From Zoogloea sp. (GTDB lineage Bacteria > Pseudomonadota > Gammaproteobacteria > Burkholderiales > Rhodocyclaceae), in assembly GCF_030157465.1 (NCBI RefSeq), contig NZ_JAOAUU010000096.1, positions 1,417-65,416 of the forward strand: a DNA stretch of 64,000 nt. Reading direction: 5' to 3'. This document shows positions 1,882-19,118 of this stretch, piece by piece. The stretch's first letter is position 1. Each line of letters starts with the position of its first letter. The notes beneath the pieces were generated by a model. The model had not been told where the DNA came from. It saw only the letters and a program-made list of their open reading frames with translations, and searched no databases. Made by a program: the position numbers and the translations under genes.

Positions 1882-2619
1882 CTATGCGGTAGCCACTCCA
1901 CCGACTATCACCCCCACCCTGGGCAGCAGCGAAACCAGTGTCGCCGGCGGCGTGTCATACACCGTCTGCCGTGTCATGTACGCCAGCACCGGCAGCGTCA
2001 GCTCCCTCACCCCGAACTTCCCCGCCACCTTCCGCGCCTCGGCATACAGCTTCAGCACCTGCCCCCGCACCCCGGAGAACATCGGCATCATCGCCAGCGC
2101 CGCGATCTCCTGGGTGAGCCCTGCCACATCATGCCGCTTCGCCCGTTCAACAATCAGCGCCTCGTGCGCCTTGTAGTGCGGGCGGGTGATTCGCCAGGTC
2201 CACGTCGTATCCCGCACCTTGCCGATGCGCTTCTCGGTGTGCAGGAGTTCATACAGCCCCCAGCGCAGATGCTGGCCTTGCGCGGTGGTGTCGTAGATCG
2301 TTCCGATGTCAGGCGCTCCCGGATCGCCCAGCCCCTGACGCCCTTGGGTGGAAACCAGCACCCAGTCGAGCACCTCATCCTCCGAGTCGGTGATGACCAG
2401 ATGGCAGGAGGCCAAGCCCCGGCTGCGGTCATAGGCCCGCCCCGGCACGTTCCGGTCAATCCGGAACGGCGCGAGCTTGGCGAGCAGGCGCTCCAGCTTG
2501 CCGCGCACCACGCGGCCGGCTGTCCAGAGGACGTGGCCCGACTGGGCGTAGAGCTGAAGGAGCTGCATGGCAGCGGTTTGATTGCGCGGCACCTTCACCG
2601 CGCGCAGGACATCGAGCAT
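1882..2619 (-). CDS. Hypothetical protein, 245 aa, accessory
   Basis: Complete ORF with an ATG preceded by a GGAG-type ribosome binding site eight bases upstream. I do not recognise a family. The protein looks soluble and mixed alpha/beta in the middle, with a DLGDPGAPDIG-like turn region (residues about 95-110). It has a basic first half and a hydrophobic, glycine-rich C terminus (VSLLPRVGVIVGG) that might be a short amphipathic or membrane-touching tail. It points toward the CRISPR array end and lies between the array and the structured RNA region. Nothing ties it to Cas function. It could belong to the mobile element that carries the downstream serine recombinase. Confidence is for being a real gene, not for any role. 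Confidence 0.75.
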   Translation of the reverse strand: MLDVLRAVKVPRNQTAAMQLLQLYAQSGHVLWTAGRVVRGKLERLLAKLAPFRIDRNVPGRAYDRSRGLASCHLVITDSEDEVLDWVLVSTQGRQGLGDPGAPDIGTIYDTTAQGQHLRWGLYELLHTEKRIGKVRDTTWTWRITRPHYKAHEALIVERAKRHDVAGLTQEIAALAMMPMFSGVRGQVLKLYAEARKVAGKFGVRELTLPVLAYMTRQTVYDTPPATLVSLLPRVGVIVGGVATA

Positions 2620-2934
2620 TCAGGGTTCTCCAAGAGTGAGTCTGATGGAGAGGTATAGGCGCAACGCCCCCGGATGCTGCATGCGATCAGAAAACGGCTC
2701 AGTGCATAATGAACTGGGAAACATGCAATCCCGTCATCCCTGCCTTCTGACGCTATACCTTTACGAGGCCATACGGATCGAATCCGTATCGGCAGGAGCG
2801 CCAACTCCCGTAGTACGCCATCACGATGGTCCCGGCGCGCCAACGCCGAACCATCACACTCACCGCTCGAGCCGTGCTCGAACCGCCCTTGCCCGGCGGA
2901 AGTCTTGTGGCGCCGTATGCTCGTAATGGAGCCT

Positions 2935-3946
2935 GTACGGTGCGAGGGGGAGGTTGCGGAGTAATCCCGGGCGCTCATCGCCCGGCGTAATCCCGCTGCT
3001 TTATCCCATGGCGGCCAGGTGCCTCTACCTGGCGGAAACGGTGCGAACACGAAACGGGCGCGGGGAGCAAATGCCCCGATGACCCTGACACGATGACCAG
3101 CGGGTGTGAGTCCCGCCCAGGGCATGCACGGAAGTGCATGACCTGTGCTCGTCAGGATGGCTGCGTAATCGCCTGCCGTGAGGCAGGCCTCGGCCGGATA
3201 CAGGAAGTCCTGTAGACCGGCCGGGCGAGCGCGACAGTGACCCAGAGTAGCGCCTGGGAAGCGTCGAGCCGCGCTGAGAGCTTAAACCTGTAATGGCGCC
3301 GAGTTCCGGTGCTAACGAGAAAGCAAGGAAGCCGCATAGGGCCTACAGTGCCTGCAACGTGGTGGAAGCGACAGACCAGCAACGACATTTGAGTAAGGCA
3401 GGGACTTCTCCCGGTTCTCCCGCCTGAAATCCGGTATCCAGCCCGGTTGTCGATGTCTGTCGTGAGCCAGCGGCGTTCCCTTGTGAACGCAAGAACGTGT
3501 CTAAGTGGTGCGAAATGCGCTCGGAGGTTCGGTCAGGTGGCACTGACCGGAACGGGGGTAACGACCCCGCCAATCCCGAGAGCGTATGAGCGTGGTCCTT
3601 CGATGACGACGCTCGGCCGAAAGCCGAGTCGAGTTGTGGGACCGACAAGACGCAAAGCGATGTGTAGTGATGGCAGTAAAGGCGGGTCTGGTTGGCGCCA
3701 GACTCGCTGGATGACGCTCTTGGCAGAGCATCATCCCGGAACCTGTCACGCCCTTCGGCGTGTCAGGTGCGCCCTTCCGGGCGCGGGAAATAGCAGGGCT
3801 GCGGCAGTGCCACGGTCCGCCGATATTGCAGGTCATACGTCCGACCCTCAAGGGGTGTGTTTCTCAGTGGGCATACAGCACACCATTGGTCGGCGGTAAG
3901 GACATTTATCAACGCTCAGCCACCCCTGCAAAGGGGTGGCTGTTTT
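2935..3946 (+). ncRNA. Candidate large structured non-coding RNA (about 1 kb)
   Basis: No frame here gives a credible protein. The + strand is dense with perfect hairpins: CGGGCG/CGCCCG (2968-2984), GCCAGGT/ACCTGGC (3014-3033), ATGCAC-GGAA-GTGCAT (3124-3139), GCCTGCC-GTGA-GGCAGGC (3171-3188), CGGCCGG/CCGGCCG around ACAGG/CCTGT (3191-3223), GCGTTC/GAACGC (3473-3490), CGGTCAG/CTGACCG (3530-3549), CTCGGC/GCCGAG (3612-3628), GTCTGG/CCAGAC (3686-3703), ACCTGtCACGCC/GGCGTGtCAGGT (3741-3766) and GCGCCC/GGGCGC (3769-3784). Two loops are GNRA tetraloops. The series ends in an intrinsic terminator. Size, hairpin density and mobile-element setting recall the GOLLD/ROOL class of ornate RNAs, but I cannot assign a family. 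I looked for a group II intron domain V and did not find one. The 5' end is uncertain; another perfect hairpin at 2771-2789 may belong to it. Confidence 0.6.
3918..3946 (+). terminator. Intrinsic terminator of the structured RNA
   Basis: Nine-base-pair stem AGCCACCCC / GGGGTGGCT around a TGCAAA loop, followed directly by GTTTT. It closes the hairpin-rich region and lies between it and the convergent XRE gene. Confidence 0.8.
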
Positions 3947-3966
3947 GGCGTGCGGGGCTGCGCGCC

Positions 3967-4227
3967 TCAGTCGTCGCGTGCACGCTCGCTGACGGGCGGA
4001 TGCGTGGCCACACGATCTTCGGCGCGGGCGATCAGTTCCGATGCGCGCACGCCCAGCGCATCAGCCAGCATGAACAACGTCCCGACGGTGGGAACCTTGC
4101 CGTTACGCTCTACGACGCCAACATAATTCCGGCTAACCCTCGCAAGGGATGCCAGATTTTCCTGGGAAATGGCCTGTTCCAGCCGCGCTTCGCGCAAGAC
4201 TGCGGCAAGGGCTTCGATGCGATCCAT
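3967..4227 (-). CDS. XRE-family helix-turn-helix regulator, 86 aa
   Basis: Small DNA-binding protein. The HTH spans about residues 14-60: ISQENLASLARVSRNYVG matches the QE.LA..A.VSR.Y....E pattern of single-domain Cro/C.AhdI-like XRE proteins. The charged tail (HPPVSERARDD) is probably unstructured. The ATG at 4227 faces a perfect inverted repeat at 4286-4310, located between this gene and the divergent gene at 4372. Autoregulation and control of the neighbour are therefore likely (inference). It could also be a controller protein of a restriction or recombination module, but no such partner is visible. Confidence 0.9.
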   Translation of the reverse strand: MDRIEALAAVLREARLEQAISQENLASLARVSRNYVGVVERNGKVPTVGTLFMLADALGVRASELIARAEDRVATHPPVSERARDD

Positions 4228-4285: not shown

Positions 4286-4310
4286 CACCATAGTGTTGCA
4301 CACTATGGTG
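4286..4310. promoter_or_regulatory. Perfect palindromic operator between divergent genes
   Basis: CACCATAGTGT and ACACTATGGTG form perfect 11-bp inverted arms around TGC, in the divergent intergenic region between the XRE gene and the 119-aa gene. Arm length and position fit a dimeric XRE repressor site. Assignment to this regulator is inference. Confidence 0.7.
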
Positions 4311-4371
4311 TTTTAATGAGAGGCTTCGGCTTGTGGCGATGTGCGCCCTGGACACACTGGAGAACACGACG

Positions 4372-4731
4372 ATGAAACCCGAGTACGAAGCCCTGTCAGG
4401 GCTGCCATTGATCTATGCCGTGCTGAAGCGGACTGGCTATGAAATGCTGGGGCGAGCAGAAGGGCCTTTTGCATTCACGCCGCACGGCGAGCCGGCCTTT
4501 TCCATCGTGACGGGCGATGCGCGAGCGCTGGTAACGCTGGGTCAGGGTGAGTGCGAGTTGTTCATGCTGGAACAGGCGCGGCAATTGGGCGCCCATTTTC
4601 ACGTCTCGGAAAATCAGGTGAGGTGCGTGATCGACCAGCATCTGGCCACTGGCGCCTCCTATGCGGAGGCTGCGGGGCGAGCCATGCTGATGTGGAGTGA
4701 TCCTGGGACGCCTGAAAGTTTGGAGGAATGA
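4372..4731 (+). CDS. Hypothetical protein, 119 aa
   Basis: I prefer the ATG at 4372 (MKPEYEALSG) because GGAG lies just upstream; the ORF could extend to 4333. The first half (ALSGLPLIYAVLKRTGYEMLG...GPFAFTPHGEPAFSIV) looks like a small beta-rich domain, and the second half is helical. I do not recognise a family. It is transcribed divergently from the XRE regulator across the palindromic operator, and followed by the small ORF and the recombinase, so it is probably cargo or an accessory factor of the same mobile element. Confidence 0.75.
   Translation: MKPEYEALSGLPLIYAVLKRTGYEMLGRAEGPFAFTPHGEPAFSIVTGDARALVTLGQGECELFMLEQARQLGAHFHVSENQVRCVIDQHLATGASYAEAAGRAMLMWSDPGTPESLEE

Positions 4732-4973: not shown

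Positions 4974-4977
<4 letters not shown>
4831..4977 (+). CDS. Small ORF, 48 aa, translationally coupled to recombinase
   Basis: An ATG at 4831 opens a 48-codon frame (starts MEHHLETADKDALSPAETRL) whose TGA overlaps the recombinase ATG as ATGA. It is too short for the supplied ORF track. The central LIDLIAEIVVAQIL segment would form an amphipathic helix, followed by a proline-rich tail. The 4-bp overlap suggests translational coupling to the serine recombinase, as is common for small upstream partners of such enzymes. The function is unknown; it could be a directionality or accessory factor (speculative). Confidence 0.6.
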
Positions 4978-6671
<1,694 letters not shown>

Positions 6672-6957: not shown

Positions 6958-8310
6958 ATGGCAAATCTGAAGTTCTCCAAAACTGCGCTGCTTGGACTTA
7001 AAGCGCCCGAGGCCGGGAAGCGACTGACGATCTACGACACCGATGTTCCGAAGCTGGCGATCCGCATGACACACGCCGGAGCACAAACCTTCTACGTGGT
7101 GAAGCGGGCAGGCGCGTCCATGGCCTGGGTGAAGCTGGGCAGCTTCCCGGACATGACCGTCGAGCAAGCCCGGAAGGAAGCCGCCAAGGTGCTGGGGGAG
7201 TTTGCTGGCGGCGCAAATCCTGCCGCCGTGAAGCGAGCCATTCGGGAAGAGCCCATCTTTGCAGACGCCTTCGAAGACTTCCTGACCGGCAAGCGCAAGC
7301 GCGACGGCTCGCCCCTGGCGGAGAGCACCAAGCGCGACTACCGCGACGTGCTGCGGCTGTACCTCGCCCCCATCAAGGGCAAGAAGCTGTCGCAGATCGA
7401 ACGGACCGACGTGAAGGCGATCCACAAAAAGACCGCGATCAAGAGCGCGGCACAGGCTGACAGGGCCGTTGCTGTCGTTTCGTCCGTCTTCACTTACATG
7501 GCGGATCAAGAGGTTTTCACCGGCACCAACCCCGCCAGCCGAGTGCAGAAGAATCCGCCCCCCTCCCGCGACCGATTCGCCCAAAGCTACGAACTGCCGT
7601 ACCTGCTCGAAGCCGTCGCCCGATCCGACCAACGGGATTACTTCCTGCTGTCCCTGCTCACTGGTGCGCGGCGCTCAAACGTGCAGGCGATGACCTGGCG
7701 CGACCTCGACCTGCCCGGCGCCGTCTGGCGCATCGGCAAGACCAAGAACGGCACGCCGCAGAATGTGCCGCTCTCGCCCGAGGCCATCATGGTGCTGAAC
7801 GCCCGCAAAGAGAACGCCGGCACCTCACCCTTCGTCTTCCCCGGCACCGGCAGGACGGGGCATCTCGTGGAACCCAAAAAGGCATGGGCCACGATCCGAC
7901 GCACCGCCAGCCTGTTCCGCCTGCTGGATGCCCTCAAGCTGGACGACGACGCCCGCACCGAGGCCGACACCCTTGCCCTCGAAAGCATCGCCAAAGCCGA
8001 GCGGAAATATCAGGCCCAAGCCAAGGCCGCCCAGATCGACCCGGCGCACTTCGCCATGACCGACCTACGGATTCACGATCTGCGCCGCACCCTGGGGAGC
8101 TGGCAGGCCAAGACCGGCGCATCCCTGACCATCATCGGCAAGAGCCTGAACCACAAGACCCACCAAGCGACCGCGATCTATGCGCGCCTCGACCTCGATC
8201 CGGTTCGCCAGTCGGTGAACACCGCAACGGCCGCGATGCTGGAGGCTGCCGGCCTGAAGGAAGGGGCGACCGTGCTGCCGCTGCCCAAGAAAAGCCGCGG
8301 TGGTGCGTGA
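6958..8310 (+). CDS. Tyrosine recombinase/integrase of the tRNA-Thr element, 450 aa
   Basis: P4-like integrase that cuts and joins att sites through a tyrosine intermediate. The N-terminal DUF4102-type arm-binding domain (about 1-90: LTIYDTDVPKLAIRMTHAGAQTFYV) is followed by a SAM-like core-binding domain (about 100-200). The catalytic domain has Arg in LTGARRSNVQ (about 235), the HDLRRT box (about 373) and the nucleophile in TAIYARLD (about 408). An insertion around 315-365 is rich in charged helices. The gene starts 160 bp inside attL and reads into the element. The repeats before its ATG are probably its own binding sites. Confidence 0.96.
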   Translation: MANLKFSKTALLGLKAPEAGKRLTIYDTDVPKLAIRMTHAGAQTFYVVKRAGASMAWVKLGSFPDMTVEQARKEAAKVLGEFAGGANPAAVKRAIREEPIFADAFEDFLTGKRKRDGSPLAESTKRDYRDVLRLYLAPIKGKKLSQIERTDVKAIHKKTAIKSAAQADRAVAVVSSVFTYMADQEVFTGTNPASRVQKNPPPSRDRFAQSYELPYLLEAVARSDQRDYFLLSLLTGARRSNVQAMTWRDLDLPGAVWRIGKTKNGTPQNVPLSPEAIMVLNARKENAGTSPFVFPGTGRTGHLVEPKKAWATIRRTASLFRLLDALKLDDDARTEADTLALESIAKAERKYQAQAKAAQIDPAHFAMTDLRIHDLRRTLGSWQAKTGASLTIIGKSLNHKTHQATAIYARLDLDPVRQSVNTATAAMLEAAGLKEGATVLPLPKKSRGGA

Positions 8311-18984: not shown

Positions 18985-19118
18985 GCATGGTGACGCCCCA
19001 ATGGGCGGGGCCGTGTGGGAGGGGAAACCCTGCCGGTTCCAAGTACCGGTCTGCCAACCTGCACGGTTCCGCCCACCTCGCTTGGCAGCGAGTAAGCGGA
19101 GAACATAGCCGCTACTTG
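18985..19118 (+). promoter_or_regulatory. Candidate structured leader RNA (P4-immunity-region-like)
   Basis: Between the terminator and the next start, the + strand holds tightly packed short stems (CGCCCCAATGGGCGGGG, ACCGGT pairs around TCCAAGTACCGG, GGTTCCGCCCACC) just before a small arginine-rich ORF. The layout resembles the leader with small gene found in P4-type satellites near their immunity region. That comparison is from memory of layout and has not been aligned. Confidence 0.4.

Follow-up and report, generated by a model that had tools for sequence, protein, structure and literature searches.

A locus in Zoogloea that very probably encodes a circularly permuted group II ribozyme beside acpG in divergent orientation

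The window analysed here is a 64,000-nucleotide (nt) stretch of a Zoogloea sp. contig. Its first few kilobases carry, among other features, a clustered regularly interspaced short palindromic repeat (CRISPR) array (1 to ~1797), the gene acpG on the reverse strand, a structured region at 2771-3946 and a serine recombinase gene (4974-6638). The initial annotation had described the structured region as a large structured non-coding RNA with the array and the recombinase for neighbours. Both do lie nearby, with acpG between the array and the RNA. The open reading frames (ORFs) across 2771-3946 overlap each other on both strands, none being credible as a coding gene, and the pairing lies far beyond chance (0 of 500 shuffles), so that the description as a structured non-coding RNA holds. 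The region can be read, with a probability of about 96% judged from sequence comparison, as encoding a circularly permuted (CP) group II ribozyme, accompanied by the divergent acpG. The architecture, the domain order, the splice-site motifs, the conserved covarying pairing and the gene association of such a ribozyme are all present at this locus.

CP group II ribozymes ("T-large" RNAs) were described by Roth et al. (2021, iScience, PMC8637638). In the excerpts of that article used here, they are about 900 nt long, their domains (D) are arranged in the order D5-D6-D1-D2-D3-D4, and their splice sites are internal and reversed. The gene acpG (TTHC007) is named there as a frequent neighbour, often divergent, without known function. 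Five members are active in vitro, giving small circles together with branched RNA, and a pseudoknot between the hairpin P2 and D2 is supported by covariation and by a deletion mutant.

Domain order and covariation of the RNA

No Rfam family matches 2771-3946 when the whole window is scanned with cmscan at gathering thresholds. A permissive scan of 2600-4000 places RF00029 (group II domains V-VI) at 2908-3009 with 36.5 bits (E 3.4e-5; gathering score 40). The match lies at the 5' end of the structured stretch, unlike its position in a normal intron. The canonical order, D1 to D6 between outer exons, is thus replaced by a permuted one, and the arrangement of D5-D6 followed by D1-D3 recurs in 28 aligned RNAs. 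Conserved splice-site motifs bound the linker between the two parts: CCCAT ends at 3009, in line with the NU expected after D6, and GTGCG starts at 3041. The covarying D6 stem leaves A3003, which lies 7 nt from the 3' splice site, without a pairing partner. The first candidate for the 5' splice site, GGGCG at 3056, was dropped when the alignment placed the site at the GTGCG at 3041.

The secondary structure, a model of 257 pairs, was derived from an alignment of five species over 2760-3712, and its pairing was assessed in the same alignment. Standard pairs fill 94.8% of the cells, compared with a mean of 80.7% in shuffled alignments and 37-44% when the partners are slid by 1-3 columns; the slide control is biased toward the model, because the structure came from the same alignment. 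The shuffle result and the count of double changes do not rest on the shared alignment alone. Both sides have changed at 117 of the 257 pairs, against 53.4 +/- 5.0 in the shuffles, none of which (0/500) reaches the observed number. The initial annotation had named covariation of the stems in homologues beforehand as the test of its proposal, and this covariation was found. In D5-D6 taken separately, 12 of 41 pairs changed on both sides in the five species, 99% of the cells are paired, and no shuffle out of 500 is as high.

The pairing of exon-binding site 1 (EBS1) with intron-binding site 1 (IBS1) was recovered without reference to the model. A blind scan of about 470 columns in 28 RNAs for a complement to the six nucleotides before the 5' site gave a best score of 0.84, the next column reaching 0.64. 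The winning column corresponds to 3412-3417 in the window and pairs with IBS1 at 3035-3040. When partners were reassigned among species, none of 10,000 trials reached this score. The pairing contains one mismatch in the window, and single mismatches occur in most homologues.

Several points weigh against the assignment. The RF00029 score of the window RNA itself is just under the gathering score, the Rfam match to D1-D4 is marginal (15.5 bits), and GTGCG and the CGC triad of the window's subgroup are both canonical alternatives. A relative with the same permuted order, L059, exceeds the RF00029 gathering score (50.3 bits against 40).

The predicted RNA is about 1.2 kb long. Its end at 3946 agrees with the initial annotation; its start probably lies near 2765 rather than 2771, right after a box CGCTATAC, so that the transcript would probably run from ~2765 to 3946, and the conserved core is 2795-3708. 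Among the hairpins singled out earlier, the compound stem of CGGCCGG and ACAGG (3190-3224) is conserved as helix 22, with 10 of 14 pairs changed on both sides. The stem of ACCTG and CACGCC (~3742-3768) is present in the sequence, although it lies 3' of the conserved core and is not conserved in the relatives. The final hairpin is likewise present 3' of the core and is likely the terminator; L053 has a comparable hairpin after its RNA, and L034 has retained one. The coordinates of the features are collected in Table 1.

Table 1. Features of the acpG-RNA locus, in window coordinates (PMC8637638 is cited from excerpts)
Feature	Position	Strand	Remarks
acpG	1882-2619	-	~30 loci have a homologue (19-58% identity) next to the RNA
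Divergent intergenic region	2652-2759		inverted boxes GGTATAG.GC (~2652-2663) and GACGCTATACC (~2748-2758)
5' hairpin, CGCCAA loop	2795-2808	+	loop invariant, stem covarying
Second 5' hairpin, CGCCAA loop	2834-2847	+	
P2-like hairpin	2886-2898	+	loop TTGCCC here, TTGCCA or CGCCA in relatives; could form pairs with the D2 loop GGTGGCAC, which would fit the published P2-D2 pseudoknot (PMC8637638)
Core-closing stem	2902-2908 with 3645-3651	+	helix 7; 100% paired, double changes at 2 of 7 pairs
Domain 5, catalytic hairpin, triad CGC	2910-2943	+	RF00029; 100% paired, 4 pairs changed on both sides
Domain 6, bulged branch-point A3003, 3' splice site 3009/3010	2946-3009	+	stem covaries, A stays unpaired
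Linker ("exons"), predicted 31-nt circle, 7-bp hairpin, IBS1 3035-3040	3010-3040	+	flanked in every homologue by conserved 3' and 5' splice-site motifs
5' splice site GTGCG, canonical GUGYG type	3041-3045	+	aligns with GGGCG of other CP RNAs
Domain 1	3041-3501 (end approximate)	+	covarying helices 12-33; order and splice-site position match Roth et al. (PMC8637638)
EBS1, apical part of hairpin 3396-3425	3412-3417	+	from the blind scan; pairs with IBS1
Domain 2, including GGTGGCAC-loop hairpin 3527-3551	3509-3592	+	helices 34-38
Domain 3	3594-3643	+	helix 39; double changes at 10 of 19 pairs
3' hairpin, TTGGCG loop, complementary to the 5' CGCCAA loops	3681-3708	+	helix 40
Second such 3' hairpin, GCTCTTGGCAGAGC	~3719	+	
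Likely intrinsic terminator, CAGCCACCCC-TGCAAA-GGGGTGGCTG-TTTT	3917-3946	+	read from the letters

AcpG, relatives and mobile surroundings

The ORF at 1882-2619 is identified by homology as AcpG, the associated protein of the CP group II family. A profile built without TTHC007 and L059 finds TTHC007 of the Thermus plasmid pTT8 with E 6.9e-14 among 1464 ORFs searched. The protein matches no Pfam, NCBIfam or PHROGs family and no PDB sequence. Its AlphaFold model, made from four sequences, is poor (predicted local distance difference test, pLDDT, 56.5), and the Foldseek matches to it are noise.

A search of 101 genomes gave one relative, from another family of the order, with 70% identity over ~824 nt, located beside a homologue of the ORF 1882-2619. 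The protein search with this ORF in 399 genomes of the order found 25, the window's own counted, and iterated nhmmer on the flanks of those genomes, seeded with the window and one relative, gave 27 RNA-bearing loci. Five further loci have both the RNA and acpG, two of them found by the RNA model alone and three by AcpG alone. All loci reached through the RNA contain acpG, and almost all of those reached through acpG contain the RNA. In most loci ~10-235 bp separate acpG from the RNA, and the gene is oriented away from it; acpG is farther off in L042, L055 and L058 (~2 kb) and in L004 (~0.75 kb). A closer AcpG alignment, used for a scan of the collection, found 3 genomes. Among plasmids AcpG was found in two Azotobacter plasmids only, and it has no match in phages or in virus contigs.

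Two acpG loci are without the RNA: L034 of Deefgea rivuli (G410) and L037, whose contig starts near acpG. The Deefgea site is orthologous to that of G064 (L053), its flanks are 80-85% identical, and exactly the RNA unit of ~1.2 kb is missing from it; no CP RNA was found elsewhere in the Deefgea genome. Deefgea rivuli has thus lost only the RNA and kept acpG, and AcpG can therefore persist alone, a case that the excerpts of PMC8637638 do not state. The absence is clean at L034 3700-3800, with the left junction at ...TATAGCGCCAAACCCA and the right one at ATCACTCACTCGGCCCCC.

The RNA is absent from all 23 congeneric genomes searched, and the copy in the window was therefore probably acquired horizontally. 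DNA searches of plasmids and phages gave no homologue. Integrases, AlpA-type regulators, a P4-type primase or C4 antisense RNA, the protein names outside the window being our own reading of the genes, are located near several loci. Such neighbours suggest that the CP RNA and acpG are cargo of integrative elements. The C4 antisense RNA of P4-like elements lies near acpG or the RNA in L034, L046 and L053; in the window it is 15 kb away, at 18997-19080.

The splice site GTGCG and the triad CGC are shared by the window RNA, L035, L036, L053 and L062, and also by L059 and L078, whereas the other RNAs and that of Thermus have GGGCG and mostly AGC. In the AcpG tree the window groups with L034-L037, L053 and L062 (99/98). 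L059 and L078 stand apart on long branches, so that the tree does not establish a single origin of the subgroup. The CP RNAs of L059 (G430, 697-791) and L078 (G318) have a nearly canonical D5 with a GAAA loop and are possible evolutionary intermediates.

In the divergent intergenic region the two inverted boxes are probably promoters or operators of acpG and the RNA. The box CGCTATAC or a near variant precedes the RNA in most loci inspected, just upstream of the apparent RNA start, and the opposite copy is also found in L038, L044, L053 and L062 and before acpG in L034, which has no RNA. The inverted pair GTATAGCG / CGCTATAC before acpG and the RNA in the window, L038, L044, L053 and L062 is a putative common promoter or operator element. 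A further motif, GAACTGGGA, is conserved at a varying distance upstream of the CGCTATAC box in the window, L035, L036, L053 and L062. A simple scan found no sigma-70 promoter.

The surroundings in the window contain several other features. The CRISPR array (1-1797) has 28-bp repeats, of a type I-F-like kind, and 32-bp spacers, and it reaches the contig start (C94:2). Its repeat also occurs on contig C162, and the spacer at the start of the window recurs at ~421-448. In L080, CRISPR-like repeats with a period of ~74 (~1396-1640) flank another acpG-CP locus. The array looks incidental to the RNA, because among the related loci screened L080 is the only other one with CRISPR-like repeats; a link between the two was rejected on this ground, and the contig breaks inside the array. 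Downstream, a perfect 11-bp inverted repeat, CACCATAGTGT/ACACTATGGTG (4286-4310), between a helix-turn-helix gene (3967-4227) and an ORF (4333-4731) is a probable operator. The serine recombinase ORF crosses a terminator-like hairpin, overlaps a tRNA gene (6598-6671) in antisense and is followed by a tyrosine integrase (6958-8310), which suggests abutting integration events at the tRNA.

Proposed reaction and alternative explanations

By homology with the five members active in vitro, it is possible to describe how the window RNA might splice and which circle it might release. In the first step the 2'-OH of A3003 would attack after G3040. The 3'-OH that this step frees on G3040, kept in place by the IBS1-EBS1 pairing, would then attack after T3009, releasing nt 3010-3040 as a 31-nt circle. 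The remaining product would be a T-shaped RNA in which a 2'-5' branch connects D5-D6 with D1-D4. As to its role, we favour, at low confidence, that either the branched product or the removal of the linker serves the integrative element or plasmid carrying the RNA and acpG, with AcpG as the partner. That AcpG is an RNA-binding or regulatory partner is a tentative suggestion.

Hairpins with YGCCA loops before D5 number 2.6 per locus on average, against ~0.1 expected, and hairpins with the complementary TGGCR loops in the 3' half number 3.0 against ~0.18. This excess on both sides suggests several interchangeable kissing loops. The loop TTGCCC of the P2-like hairpin and the D2 loop GGTGGCAC could form about 4 pairs in the window and more in the relatives, as counted from the loop letters.

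The same hairpins could instead be protein sites, the RNA being mainly a scaffold for AcpG. Throughout the family each side has several hairpins with the same loop, a number in excess of what a single pseudoknot requires. However, the 5' and 3' loops are complementary, the published P2-D2 pseudoknot has both covariation and a deletion mutant behind it (PMC8637638, in excerpt), and acpG of Deefgea persists without the RNA, all of which makes the scaffold explanation rather improbable.

Less probable still is that the copy is a dead relic, a decaying CP group II RNA without activity. Its P2-like loop is weaker, one IBS1-EBS1 pair is mismatched, and Deefgea, a close relative by its acpG, has lost the RNA entirely. 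Nevertheless, none of the catalytic landmarks of the window RNA (D5, bulged A, the two splice sites, EBS1) has been lost, almost all of its covarying pairs are kept, and a single mismatch of this kind is common among the homologues.

RF00029 alone would point to the end of an intron, as D5-D6 is the usual 3'-end motif; in that case the region would hold a canonical group II intron, whole or reduced to a decayed 3' end, that finishes near 3009, and an unrelated structured RNA downstream of it. Upstream there are short hairpins and a gene on the opposite strand, with no D1-D4 and no reverse transcriptase. The downstream part is tied to D5-D6 by the covarying core-closing stem and by EBS1-IBS1, and the permuted order is conserved in the 28 aligned RNAs. 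The domain order and the covariation rule such an end out, and we give it almost no probability.

The lowest probability falls to a new GOLLD, ROOL, OLE or HEARO member or an undescribed ornate RNA class, which the size, the dense structure and the mobile-element surroundings would suit, given that none of these four families is among the Rfam matches to E 10 in 2600-4000 and that the AcpG-linked homologues are CP group II RNAs. The initial annotation was right to propose a very large ornate RNA; its suggestion of a divergent GOLLD, ROOL or OLE gives way to RF00029. It had regarded a group II intron across the region as an outcome that would speak against its proposal, and half of this was found, the RNA being derived from group II but permuted and non-canonical.

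With the CP group II ribozyme as the preferred reading, a wider and more doubtful speculation can be made. The subgroup that keeps GUGCG and the CGC triad, with one branch whose GAAA-capped D5 scores above the Rfam cut-off, may be nearest to the permutation of an ordinary IIC-like intron. The loops of this subgroup, multivalent and complementary between the 5' and 3' sides, and the operator-like box that the RNA shares with acpG might then make RNA and protein one co-regulated module of integrative elements. The natural pair with and without the RNA (G064 and Deefgea), the promoter-like boxes and the multiplicity of hairpins offer handles on the roles of the RNA and AcpG.

Comparison with known systems

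The window RNA is a well-preserved member of a rare ribozyme class that has already been described, and the suggestion of an undescribed system in the initial annotation does not stand, the homologues belonging to the known CP group II class. With the published members (PMC8637638, in excerpt) it shares the order D5-D6-linker-D1-D2-D3, the reversed internal splice sites, the bulged A of D6, the linker hairpin, the EBS1-IBS1 pairing, 5' hairpins complementary to the loops of D2 and of the 3' end, the lack of an internal ORF and the divergent acpG. It differs in its 5' site (GTGCG, published GGGCG) and its triad (CGC, published AGC). It also has three 5' and three 3' hairpins with complementary loops, whereas the published text, in its excerpts, names two 5' hairpins, P1 and P2. 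The GTGCG/CGC subgroup, the repeated complementary loops and the shared box do not appear in those excerpts.

The protein of the window and TTHC007 of Thermus thermophilus pTT8 are homologous at the profile level over ~205 residues, and both genes diverge from a CP RNA; the identity is ~20-28%.

The CGC triad is also that of class IIC introns. The window RNA resembles canonical bacterial group II introns in the D5/D6 fold, the GUGYG 5' site and the branch A at -7. Unlike them, it has a rotated order and no intron-encoded protein (no ORF for a reverse transcriptase or maturase lies in or beside the RNA), and it is predicted to release a circle instead of joining flanking exons. The CP group II class is a rare kind of large natural ribozyme, to which the window adds a well-supported subgroup with intron-like splice sites.
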